Positions 1 to 27,894 of a stretch of 64,000 bases of DNA are shown piece by piece. Each line of letters starts with the position of its first letter. Within the stretch, counting starts at the first letter, position 1. The notes below the pieces were generated by a model that worked only from the letters and a program-made list of their open reading frames with translations, was not told where the DNA came from and did not search any database. The position numbers and the translations under genes are program-made. The stretch is from the NCBI GenBank assembly GCA_021847015.1, contig JAJZVW010000001.1, positions 62,001-126,000 on the forward strand. Reading direction: 5' to 3'. Origin of the DNA: Pseudomonadota bacterium. GTDB lineage: Bacteria; Pseudomonadota; Alphaproteobacteria; Rhodospirillales; Magnetospirillaceae.

Positions 1-42
1 CGTGGAAATCGAGCGGAATGGGCATTCCTTCACGAACTCTCA
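1..42 (-). repeat. Family A palindromic repeat, copy 1 (cut by window edge)
   Basis: Read on the minus strand, this begins TGAGAGTT and continues GTGAAGGAATGCCCATTCCG, matching the left half of the complete copy at 2380-2483 with few changes. The window edge removes the rest. Its first three bases are the TGA stop codon of the response-regulator gene ending at 40. Confidence 0.75.
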
Positions 43-405
43 GGCGAGGAACCTGCTCACGGTCTGGAGGAACGCGCTAATAGCGATGGGTTTGGCCATA
101 TAGCCATCGCACCCGCCCTCGCGGATTTTCTCCTCGTCGCCCTTCATGGCGAAAGCGGTCACCGCGATCACGGGGATGCGCTTCAACCCCTCGTCGCCCT
201 TCAGCACCCTCGTGACCTCAAGGCCGGAGAGCTCGGGGAGTTGGATATCCATCAGGATGAGATCGGGACGGTGCTGGCGGGCGATGTCGATCGCCTCGCG
301 TCCGTTCTTGGTGTGCAGCGTGTTGTAGCCGTTGGCCAGCAAGAGGTCCCGAAACAATTTCATGTTCAGGTCGTTGTCTTCAACGATGAGAATAGTCTTC
401 GGCAT
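40..405 (-). CDS. divK: Single-domain response regulator, DivK-like
   Basis: A 121-residue protein made only of a receiver domain. The acidic pocket is E9-D10, the phosphoacceptor is D53 ([11 protein letters not shown]), and the conserved T (VTAFAM) and K (MAKP) are present. In alphaproteobacteria DivK feeds the CckA-ChpT-CtrA cell-cycle phosphorelay. cckA lies at 25.4 kb in this window with a CtrA-type box upstream of its operon, which supports the assignment. The gene is single, ATG-started, and its stop codon lies in a family A repeat. Other stand-alone receivers (CheY-like) are possible, but the [18 protein letters not shown] opening is typical of DivK. Confidence 0.85.
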
Positions 406-2040: not shown

Positions 2041-2382
2041 ATGATCACCGTTTACTACAAGTCCAGCAAGGCTCAATGGAAGTACGAGCTTGAGGAAAGC
2101 GAGCACGAGGAAATCATCAAGAACCTGATGGAGGGAAAACCCGACATCAGCGAAATGTTCGAGGAATCTCTCGATATCCTCCAGGAAGTGTCGGCGCTGG
2201 ATGACGCTGACATGGACGAGGACGAGCAGATCGACCAGACGATCGCGGTTGCCTTCCTCTGGCAATATTTCAATCACCTCGCTCCCGAGGACGAGCGCAT
2301 CCTCGGCGACATCGCCATCCTCGAAGACGAGGACGGGACCGGCGTCACCGTGCTGCCGGCCGAGAGCGTCGTCGAAGACTGA
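2041..2382 (+). CDS. Hypothetical highly acidic protein
   Basis: 113 residues starting MITVYYKSSKAQWKYEL at an ATG. About 32 residues are Asp or Glu against only a handful of Lys and Arg, so the isoelectric point must be very low. It has no signal peptide or membrane segment, and the composition suggests a soluble helical protein. I do not recognise the family. It is divergent from purU, and its stop codon TGA (2380-2382) is also the first triplet of a complete family A repeat. Coding is supported by codon periodicity and an acidic pattern ending cleanly at VVED; function is unknown. Confidence 0.7.
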   Translation: MITVYYKSSKAQWKYELEESEHEEIIKNLMEGKPDISEMFEESLDILQEVSALDDADMDEDEQIDQTIAVAFLWQYFNHLAPEDERILGDIAILEDEDGTGVTVLPAESVVED

Positions 2383-2483
2383 GAGTTTGTGAAGGAATGC
2401 CCATTCCGCGCGATTCCGACGGAAAAGCGCCAACGTTTTTAATGGGCGTTCTTTCACAAGTTCGATTGATTTACAAACTCTCA
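2380..2483 (+). repeat. Family A palindromic repeat, copy 2 (complete)
   Basis: A 104-bp element bounded by perfect 11-bp inverted ends, TGAGAGTTTGT and ACAAACTCTCA. Inner arms GTGAAGGAATGCCCATT and AATGGGCGTTCTTTCAC also pair imperfectly, so the whole element can fold into one long hairpin. It begins exactly on the stop codon of the preceding gene. Related copies lie at 1-42 (minus strand) and 27792-27894. Confidence 0.85.
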
Positions 2484-25408: not shown

Positions 25409-27794
25409 GCGGTGGCAGGAGCCGTTGCCCTGGGCCTTGGGGGCGGCGGTGGTCGCGGTAACGGGTCTGGCGGCCGCCAATGGCGGCGCCATCGCCATTC
25501 CGGCCACCATCGCCGGGGCGGTGGCGCTGGCCAGCGGCGGCATCCTCGCCCGTCGCTGGGAGCACGCGCGCCATGCAGCCAGCCAGAATGCATTGCTGGC
25601 CGGCGCCCTCGAATCCGAGTCCCGCGCCTGCCTGATCACCGACGGCAATGGCCGCGAAATCTTGCGCAACCAGGCTGGGCGGCGTCTGCTCGGCCCGGCC
25701 CAGTCTCCGCTGGCGGCGTTCGCCAAGCGCGCCCAAGGCGACGAACGCGCCCAGGAGGAGATCCAACGCCTCGCCGCGGCGGCGGCCGCCGCCGCTCCGC
25801 GCCGCGCGGAAATCACCTTGCCCTTGGCAGGCGGCGGACGCGAATGGTTCGCCATCGAGGTGCGGCCCTCCGGACCCGGGGCGATGTGCTGGACCGTCGA
25901 GGACATTACCGCCCGGCGGGCCATCGAAGAGACGGCACGGCGGGAAGCCGAGACCCTGGCCGACTTCGTCGATCTGCTTCCGGTGGGTTGCTACTCGGCC
26001 GACGCTGCCGGCGTCATCCGCTGGGTCAATCATCGCCTGGCCGAATGGCTGGGGCACCAGCCCGGGGAACTGGTCGGCCAAAACCTCGCGGACGTTCTCG
26101 GCGCCGTCCCCGACCCCGAGCAGGGGCGGACCGAAATGCGCCTCACCGGGCGTGGCGGCGAGGTATTCCAGGCGATGGTGGCGCACACCGTGTTCGACGA
26201 GGGCGGCGAGATTTTCACCCGCTCGGTGGTGATCCGCGACCTGATGCCGGAACACCAGTGGGAACGCGCGCTTCGCTCGGCGGAACGCCGTTTCCGCTGG
26301 CTGTTCGACGACGCGCCCGTGGGCATCGCGCTGATCGAGCTGGATGGAACCGTCGGTGCCTGCAACCTTGCATTGCAGTCCATGATGGGAATCGCCCACG
26401 AGGACATGGCCGGCCGCCCGGTGGCGAACCTCATCGCCGAGGAGAACCGCGTGGCGGCCTCCGACCAGCTCGCCAAGGTGATCTCCGGCTCGGTGCCGGG
26501 AACCCATCTCGAGGTCAAGCTGAAGGGCCGTCGGGACTTGATCGCCCAGCTTTTCGTCAGCCCCACCCATGAGGACGGCGAAATTTCGGGCCTGATCGTC
26601 CACTTCATCGACGCCACCGAGCAGCGCAACCTGGAAATCCAGTTCGCCCAGTCGCAGAAGATGCAGGCGATGGGCCAGCTTGCCGGCGGCGTCGCCCACG
26701 ATTTCAACAATCTGCTGACCGCCATGATCGGGTTCTGCGACCTGCTGTTGCAGCGTCATGGCCCGGGCGATCCCAGTTTCGCCGACATCATGCAGATCAA
26801 GCAGAACGCCAACCGCGCCGCCAGCCTGGTACGGCAGCTTCTCGCCTTCTCCCGCCGGCAAGCCCTGCAACCGCGCCTGCTCAACATCACCGACGCCCTG
26901 GCGGAGCTGTCCAATCTGCTGCGCCGCCTGCTGGGCGAGACCATCGAACTCAAGATCATCCATGGCCGCCAGTTGGGGCTGGTGCGCGTGGACCCCGGCC
27001 AGTTCGATCAGGTCATCATCAATCTGGCGGTCAACGCCCGCGACGCCATGCCCGGCGGCGGCGCGCTGAGCATCCGCACCAACGCGGTCTCGGTGGCCAA
27101 GCCCGTGCCGCGCGGGCCGGAAGTCATGCCGGCCGGCGATTACGTGCTGATCGAGGTGTCCGACACCGGAACGGGCATCCCGCGCGAGAATTTGGGCCGG
27201 ATCTTCGAGCCCTTTTTCTCCACCAAGGAGGTGGGGGCCGGGACCGGCCTGGGCCTGTCCACCGTCTACGGCATCGTCCGCCAGACCGATGGCTTCATTT
27301 TCGTCGAAAGCGAGCTTGGCCAGGGCGCCACCTTCTCGATCCACCTGCCCAGGGTGGAGGCCGAGCCCGCCGCCGAGTCCAAGCCCCTTTCCGTGCCCGC
27401 CGAGCCGCACGGCAACGACCTGACCGGCAACGCCACCGTTCTGTTGGTGGAGGACGAGGACGCCGTCCGCCTGTTCGGCGCCCGCGCGTTGCGCAACAAG
27501 GGATATCGCGTGCTGGAAGCCCGATCGGGCGAACAGGCGCTGGACATGCTGCGCGGCGACGAAACGGTGGAGGTCCTCATCACCGACGTGGTGATGCCCG
27601 GCATGGACGGGGTGACCCTGGCCCGCCTGGTCCGGCTGGAGCGTCCCACCATCCGGGTGATCCTGATCTCGGGCTATTCCGAGGACGTCGCCCGCAACGG
27701 CATCGACCCGGCCGAGGGCATCCATTTCCTGCCCAAGCCGTTCACCCTCAAGCAACTGGCCGGCGCCGTCAAACAGGTGATCGGCGACGACTGA
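25398..27794 (+). CDS. cckA: Hybrid histidine kinase CckA
   Basis: 798 residues. Two N-terminal membrane segments (about 12-50), two PAS domains, then HisKA with H434 in GGVAHDFNNLLTAMIGF, the HATPase domain (VNARDAMPGGG, DTGTGIPRENLGRIFEPFFSTK, GTGLGLSTVYGIV), and a C-terminal receiver with D730 (ITDVVMPGMDG). This is the CckA layout; CckA phosphorylates CtrA and CpdR via ChpT and is inhibited through DivK/DivL. The start is TTG at 25398 inside flhB, behind GGGAAG, so expression is linked to the flagellar operon. Its stop codon lies in a family A repeat. Confidence 0.93.
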   Translation: MRAKRWQEPLPWALGAAVVAVTGLAAANGGAIAIPATIAGAVALASGGILARRWEHARHAASQNALLAGALESESRACLITDGNGREILRNQAGRRLLGPAQSPLAAFAKRAQGDERAQEEIQRLAAAAAAAAPRRAEITLPLAGGGREWFAIEVRPSGPGAMCWTVEDITARRAIEETARREAETLADFVDLLPVGCYSADAAGVIRWVNHRLAEWLGHQPGELVGQNLADVLGAVPDPEQGRTEMRLTGRGGEVFQAMVAHTVFDEGGEIFTRSVVIRDLMPEHQWERALRSAERRFRWLFDDAPVGIALIELDGTVGACNLALQSMMGIAHEDMAGRPVANLIAEENRVAASDQLAKVISGSVPGTHLEVKLKGRRDLIAQLFVSPTHEDGEISGLIVHFIDATEQRNLEIQFAQSQKMQAMGQLAGGVAHDFNNLLTAMIGFCDLLLQRHGPGDPSFADIMQIKQNANRAASLVRQLLAFSRRQALQPRLLNITDALAELSNLLRRLLGETIELKIIHGRQLGLVRVDPGQFDQVIINLAVNARDAMPGGGALSIRTNAVSVAKPVPRGPEVMPAGDYVLIEVSDTGTGIPRENLGRIFEPFFSTKEVGAGTGLGLSTVYGIVRQTDGFIFVESELGQGATFSIHLPRVEAEPAAESKPLSVPAEPHGNDLTGNATVLLVEDEDAVRLFGARALRNKGYRVLEARSGEQALDMLRGDETVEVLITDVVMPGMDGVTLARLVRLERPTIRVILISGYSEDVARNGIDPAEGIHFLPKPFTLKQLAGAVKQVIGDD

Positions 27795-27894
27795 GGGTTT
27801 ATGAACGTTGCTCATCCCGCTCGATTCTGACGGAAAAACGCCAATATTTTCAATGGGCGTTCGTTCATACGCTCGATTGACTTACAAACTCCGG
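27792..27894 (+). repeat. Family A palindromic repeat, copy 3
   Basis: Begins TGAGGGTTTATGAA at the cckA stop codon, contains the family core CTCGATTCTGACGG and AATGGGCGTTC, and ends TTACAAACTC. It is clearly related to 2380-2483 but its terminal inverted repeats have diverged. It lies between cckA and the recA promoter. Confidence 0.8.

Follow-up and report, generated by a model that had tools for sequence, protein, structure and literature searches.

Insertion sequences of the IS200/IS605 family, as represented by IS608 and ISDra2, insert 3' of a fixed short sequence that is kept on their left flank. In the accessible accounts of IS608 this sequence is TTAC, the guides AAAG and GAAT precede the hairpins, and a preference of ~70% at position +1 is given for the base that also starts the element. 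REP sequences, which are associated with TnpA-REP (RAYT) transposases, are palindromic non-coding repeats of 20-40 bp. The MITEs ERIC/RU-1, YPAL/RU-2, RUP and CIR (Caulobacter) are, by the accounts at hand, non-autonomous elements of ~100-200 bp with base-paired transcripts, found mainly between genes, and the accessible literature on bacterial MITEs mostly describes such repeats just as intergenic. YPAL repeats are said, with De Gregorio in 2006 as the source, to lie near or over stop codons.

The repeat described here, family A, resembles IS608 and ISDra2, as far as their available descriptions go, in lying directly behind a constant short sequence that remains on its left, in having a hairpin beside a guide-like tetranucleotide, and in a +1 preference for the element's own first base. 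Unlike IS200/IS605 elements, it carries no TnpA gene, has a single strong hairpin where those elements have one at each end, and shows the same CTGA at both ends; no bias towards stop codons is mentioned in the available descriptions of IS608 and ISDra2. With REP sequences it shares a palindromic, non-coding form, and the A-G near its hairpin foot could pair with CT at the cleavage site, a pairing that the accessible REP literature proposes for GTAG. In contrast to REP sequences, it is ~101 bp long, has no GTAG at the hairpin foot and sits on the stop codon itself, whereas REP sequences are described there as predominantly downstream of coding regions. No REP-type transposase gene flanked by family A was found, and no element ends lie by the Y1 genes of the carriers. 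The MITEs named above are like family A in size, lack of autonomy, base pairing and mainly intergenic position, but most of them show TA termini or duplications that vary in size (3-26 bp in YPAL), and their available descriptions do not mention exact stop-codon placement. The openly available text of the literature searched (PMC2229807, PMC2759123, PMC3733652, PMC8266576, PMC5934647 and PMC10969869; most subscription journals lay outside this scope) describes no comparable element that targets stop codons. We read family A as a non-autonomous mobile element of ~101 bp that inserts 3' of CTGA in a single orientation, that would move by an HUH-type mechanism, and whose excess on stop codons is mostly insertional; we give this reading as a whole a probability of about 0.68.

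Family A copies in the window and in other genomes

The window, by which we mean the whole 64,000-nucleotide stretch analysed, holds three copies of family A (Table 1), and in all three the first bases, TGA, are indeed the in-frame stop codon of the upstream gene, as the original prediction had it. The right-end triplet of copy 2 is TCA (2481-2483), where the usual triplet is TGA. The reading frame of the acidic protein can be extended further upstream, the start at ATG 2041 being our choice. Copy 3 is the least similar full-length copy in the genome (82%, BLAST), and two of its stem positions are altered on both sides with pairing kept. The gene names PstB, XthA, CckA and DivK (the last for the 121-aa response regulator) are presumptive, CckA and DivK being those of the original prediction.

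Table 1. Positions of family A copies, their parts and the adjoining genes in the window
Feature	Position	Strand	Remarks
Element copy 1	1..42	-	cut by window edge; whole copy is G000:C36:61942-62042
121-aa response regulator gene (Pfam Response_reg)	40..405	-	stop is the complement of 40-42, the first TGA of copy 1
113-aa acidic protein gene	2041..2382	+	stop TGA (2380-2382) doubles as first TGA of copy 2
Element copy 2	2380..2483	+	CTGA target 2379-2382, then 101-bp unit
Hairpin 5' arm (conserved 19-bp hairpin), copy 2	2386..2404	+	
Hairpin 3' arm, copy 2	2442..2460	+	
AGTT at +2 behind CTGA, copy 2	2384..2387	+	would fit the guide that IS608-type pairing predicts for CTGA
Second AGTT, copy 2	2459..2462	+	25 nt before right end
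Element copy 3, diverged	27792..27894	+	begins on the stop (TGA 27792-27794) of a CckA-like kinase gene upstream

With the 104-bp copy as query, BLAST detected 14 copies in the whole of the window's genome (G000), and the end motif led to one further, right-truncated relic at C42:100210, which also begins on a stop. The left TGA is the stop of a called gene in 11 of the 14 BLAST copies. A twelfth, behind a PhoU gene (L007), was probably once on a stop as well, the T of its TGA apparently having been lost; the reading frame now continues to the following TGA of the element, which gives the tail -ESL. Two exceptions (L002 and L005) are intergenic. Thus copies away from stop codons do not form the majority, either in this genome (11/14) or in the pooled set (96/131), and the regularity seen in the three window copies extends to the family. 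Pfam domains found in ten upstream proteins were ABC transporter, PhoU, response regulator, ribose-phosphate pyrophosphokinase, decarboxylase, PGK, GreA, HrcA and Exo_endo_phos; one of the ten (L003) had no Pfam match at E<=1e-10.

BLAST against 98 other genomes found the element in just two of them, G004 (23 copies) and G028 (one copy). A pattern scan of 84,980 species genomes returned 112 stretches, from which we dropped two chance matches in Lachnospiraceae (L052, L138) and one cut by a contig end and lacking CTGA (L103); genome_contigs duplicates of G004 and G028 and L097, whose site surroundings are identical to those of L056, were also dropped. The remaining stretches come from metagenome-assembled genomes titled Acetobacteraceae, Rhodospirillaceae or Proteobacteria and from named carriers, Roseomonas acroporae, Paeniroseomonas aquatica and two Lichenibacterium species. 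Lichenibacterium minor, Paeniroseomonas and Roseomonas belong to the Alphaproteobacteria. An RNA model run under strict filters against 385 genomes of the class, with 10 candidates scored per genome among the matches listed, matched in its own genome only. The distribution of the element among alphaproteobacteria is patchy. Identical copies occur at separate places of one genome (L135, L146, L149), which points to recent movement.

Target sequence, ends and hairpin

A typical copy reads C/TGA GAGTTTGTGAA ... CTC TGA, with flanks C/TGA-(101 bp)-TGA. The right end is TGA in 112 of the 125 complete copies and TCA in two, so the outer bases TGA...TGA are normally a direct repeat; the TGA-to-TGA span is 104 in 101 of the 125, and 106 have CTGA at both ends. 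The base before the left TGA is C in 130 of 131 copies, a base left free in the search pattern by which 93 of them were found (it fixed the GA of the left TGA, with C and T free) as well as in the BLAST searches that gave the other 38 (G000, G004 and G028; all letters of the left TGA free). Relaxed patterns were also run. Left ends matching CTRAGNGTTTGTGAA in nine genomes (n = 133) are CTGA in 131 cases and CTAA in two, and a relaxed pattern applied to 10 genomes found no left CTCA or CTTA, hence no copy with TCA or TTA on the left. Both CTAA-left copies (L205, L206) lie on TAA stops and still have CTGA at the right end. The element always has the same orientation relative to CTGA. Among 91 stop copies the fraction with G after the target is 0.71, versus 0.25 among 181 control stops; of the 125 complete copies, 86 have G there. 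The suggestion that the element inserts at TGA sites is therefore supported and can be sharpened to CTGA, in one orientation, with G preferred next.

CTGA at both ends cannot be told apart from a target duplication; the copies with CTAA on the left and CTGA on the right favour the absence of a duplication, unless in these TGA later mutated to TAA. In seven of the 125 complete copies a second whole unit is joined at the shared CTGA and has its own right end at the expected distance. Tandem copies with one common CTGA were seen at L050, L069, L082, L091, L092, L098, L105 and L216, the second unit ending ~101 bp on. The perfect 11-bp terminal inverted repeat noted for copy 2 is real, but it does not hold as a rule of the family (TCA right ends in 2/125): terminal inverted repeats are imperfect or weak in other lineages, and weak by eye in the G2_14 lineage. 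A variant at G100:C82:111908 (L208) lies on a stop codon, lacks the TTCGATTG tail and has the inverted ends TGAGAGTTTG...CAAACTCTCA.

In an alignment of 62 copies, columns 8-26 and 66-84 form a 19-bp hairpin in which 93.8% of cells are paired. Two-sided stem changes number 65 versus 26 in shuffles, indicating covariation between lineages. G-T pairs in the stem outnumber A-C pairs (162 versus 22; 65 versus 22 without the G-T consensus columns), which identifies the folded strand as the sense strand. At the right end there is no evidently conserved second hairpin. The hairpin is followed by TTCGATTG and no T-run, and an intrinsic terminator was rejected on these grounds; a known Rfam RNA was likewise rejected, as the window gave 0 matches above the gathering score.

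Within G000, where the copies are old, divergence is 0.097 and 0.070 in the stem versus 0.056 in the loop, and stem pairing is 0.929 in copies on stops versus 0.921 in intergenic ones (two copies only). This comparison uses G000 alone, since in the pattern-found genomes 5' stem divergence is biased low by the letters that the search pattern fixed there. The hairpin is thus kept between active lineages and is without visible constraint after insertion in G000. Conservation between lineages combined with decay after insertion argues for a role in movement, and the hairpin looks like a part of the mobility apparatus and not like a selected 3' signal. The proposal that the element is selected at stop codons as a 3' hairpin finds no backing in these values, with the G000 stem diverging as much as the loop and pairing alike at both kinds of site.

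Placement on stop codons

Across 131 distinct copies from 15 genomes, with genes called by our codon-usage script and not a standard caller, 96 begin on a called gene's stop codon, 29 lie between genes and six at a gene edge. Five of the intergenic copies (L019, L023, L037, L074, L082) are stacked behind a repeat that starts on a stop. Control CTGA sites in the same DNA number 3499 inside genes, 511 intergenic and 181 at stops, which places 181 of the 692 sites outside genes (26%) on stops. The view that chance placement is unlikely is borne out by this difference.

The stop excess holds in both gene arrangements. Between tandem genes the stop:intergenic ratio is 59:8 for copies versus 80:84 for CTGA[GC] controls (p=9e-9), and between convergent genes it is 32:4 versus 32:39 (p=8e-6); avoidance of promoters is therefore not the cause. 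Expressed as copies per control sites, the stop itself has 95/116, sense CTGA behind a stop has 4/26 at <=60 nt, 3/36 at 61-150 nt and 6/66 farther away, and sites whose upstream gene is antisense have 7/135; these rates omit copies at a contig edge (5), on another repeat (6) or overlapping a gene (5). The odds of finding a copy are 5 to 16 times higher at a stop CTGA[GC] than at a CTGA[GC] of any other position outside genes, the sites <=60 nt behind a stop among them. When the controls were weighted by context, the expected stop share was 0.29-0.45 at most, and the observed share was 91/112. A longer target sequence was rejected as the whole explanation on this basis, and chance placement was rejected by the CTGA controls, the gene-arrangement splits, the per-site rates and the context weighting.

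The ages of copies were compared in the complete copies of four genomes. Young copies, defined by a sibling at a distance <=0.02, comprise 17 on stops, 10 intergenic and one at an edge, and older copies comprise 54, 14 and five, respectively. Their stop:intergenic ratios do not differ significantly (p=0.12), and both are above the control of 112:233 (young, p=0.0026; older, p=1e-12). Since young copies already surpass the control, an insertion bias towards stops is likely; some later purging is possible.

Upstream genes were also compared with orthologs extracted, for a subset, from 12 family genomes. Prs ends in SVSSLFD in all nine sequences compared (one filled site, eight empty), PstB ends in GRFG in both G000 (filled) and G004 (empty), and HrcA ends in IGRLIG in both G004 (filled) and G000 (empty), although HrcA of six genus-g7 relatives is 2 to 9 residues longer than in these two. 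GreA, at a filled site in G004, ends there in RFG; among 11 relatives with an empty site, six end likewise, one ends in KFG, two have a different residue at the same place (RFV, KFV) and two end one residue later. The last residues of XthA, PhoU and Pgk are variable and uninformative here. The empty sites of HrcA and Prs contain one CTGA and the filled ones two, and the flanks join to give the empty site. Several relatives have TAA or TAG at the corresponding stop positions. Because the element-free orthologs of Prs, PstB and HrcA in the sister genome stop at the identical residue, the element landed on pre-existing stops and left these C-termini unaltered.

It had also been suggested that the element supplies new stops that trim genes, and there are copies that would fit this. 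Six of the 131 lie at a gene edge, and in five of these the gene reads past the first TGA in the +1 frame and stops at the element's second TGA. When the element was excised in silico from the 125 complete copies, six were then spanned by a called gene, three in sense (L085, L112, L143, all of them gene-edge copies) and three in antisense (L005, L135, L080); the three sense cases are possible gene truncations, and stop-supplying or trimming may hold for such single copies. Genes that pass the element's first TGA were seen at L007, L044, L079, L085, L112 and L143, and five of the six end on the next TGA. Against trimming or replacement of gene ends as a rule stand the identical termini of element-free sister genes, the 91 of 92 stop copies that remain on a stop after excision, and the reading frame at the element, which is frame 0 in 96 copies and +1 in five. 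As a rule this explanation is largely refuted, and we regard it as hardly credible.

Mobilisation and the origin of the stop-codon excess

That family A is a mobile element we hold firmly. In the mechanism proposed, a strand-specific transposase of the IS200/IS605 (HUH) type would recognise the hairpin together with the 3' tail in folded, single-stranded form and would cleave 3' of CTGA at both ends. The element begins with G, the same base that is favoured at +1. The pairing rule read off the two IS608 ends predicts AGNT as the guide for CTGA, and of 125 copies 115 have AGNT at +2 and 109 have it 25-26 nt ahead of the right end, consistent with a guide for each end; the rule was derived from one known element, and the left match alone would arise by chance at ~5% by our estimate. 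In 47 of these copies AGNT also lies 8 nt short of the right end. A Y1 transposase (PF01797, E<=1e-3) is absent in 11 of 16 carriers, including G004 with its 23 copies, and the PF01797 matches in the other five have no element ends nearby; Y2_Tnp is present in one of 10 carriers. All left ends in nine genomes belong to short copies, with no longer, gene-bearing version among them, and no autonomous parent was found through left-end patterns (nine genomes), Y1/Y2 transposase families, phages, plasmids or viral contigs, the phage search giving only two weak 25-base matches in one Vibrio phage. Taken by itself, the HUH mechanism is a tentative proposal, to which we give slightly less than even odds.

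Transposases of the IS5-type DDE family duplicate TNA, with CTNAG preferred. Family A might accordingly be a terminal-inverted-repeat MITE moved by such an enzyme, with TGA...TGA as the duplicated TNA and TGA stops as harmless TNA sites. The TGA/TGA flanks with GAG...CTC ends, the ends themselves as imperfect inverted repeats of the kind found in DDE elements, the 11-bp perfect inverted repeat in the window copy and the likeness of C at -1 and G at +1 to CTNAG are all in keeping with this. So is a second palindromic repeat of G004, repeat B (~45 to 150 bp, GAGCCCGACCCGAAAATCG...CGGGTCGGGCTC; L019, L023, L035, L037, L041, L043, L044, L121 and L134), which shares GAG...CTC ends and TGA flanks with family A and of which four copies (L121 only in part) begin on stops. 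Repeat B differs from family A in having long inverted repeats and flanks that are TGA/TGA, TAA/TAA or TCA/TCA, and by its sequence it looks like a conventional TNA-duplicating MITE; several of its copies are stacked directly with family A. For family A itself, if the target were palindromic, TCA and TGA should be equally frequent on the left, and the 10 genomes scanned with the relaxed pattern hold no copy with TCA there; C before TGA is nearly invariant but G after it is not; and the CTAA-left copies have no CTAA on the right, barring a later mutation of TGA to TAA. A target duplication varying with the target, in both orientations, was thus not found. The inverted repeats are weak in the G2_14 lineage, and the covariation of a sense-strand hairpin and the excess on stops are left unexplained. 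We consider a DDE transposase somewhat unlikely, and an HUH enzyme the likelier of the two.

The excess on stops could instead have arisen by selection, if insertion took place at any CTGA and copies on stops were retained through a benefit of the hairpin to the mRNA, or if other copies were purged. Older copies are more often on stops than young ones, at the level of significance given above, and the sense-strand hairpin is conserved between lineages, as this would predict. However, the stem in G000 does not diverge less than the loop and pairs as well in the two intergenic copies as on stops, young copies already exceed the control (17:10 versus 112:233), and sense sites <=60 nt behind stops are not favoured as the stop is. 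Moreover, for 23 of the 59 stop copies with a same-strand next gene the gap to that gene is <50 nt, which is odd for a 3' signal. We judge selection as the source of the excess to be improbable. A separate question is whether the element homes on stop codons as such, beyond CTGA, being attracted to the point of translation termination, for instance by an exposed coding strand or a terminating ribosome; we think this rather unlikely. On our reading of family A as a mobile element 3' of CTGA, the stop excess would come mostly from the choice of insertion site and partly from later loss of other insertions. By landing on an existing stop, which leaves the protein unchanged there, as for Prs, PstB and HrcA, the element would spread without altering a gene product.

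Family A has a target of four defined bases, one orientation and a preference for the exact stop that can be measured, and several bacteria also carry identical young copies of it; it offers a simple system for asking whether transposons reach harmless sites through insertion or through selection. Gene tagging at 3' ends without altering proteins is a natural lead. The case also carries a caution, in that repeats sitting on stop codons need not be regulatory hairpins. If homing on stop codons is true, it would be a safe-harbour strategy by which the element spares the proteins of its host.
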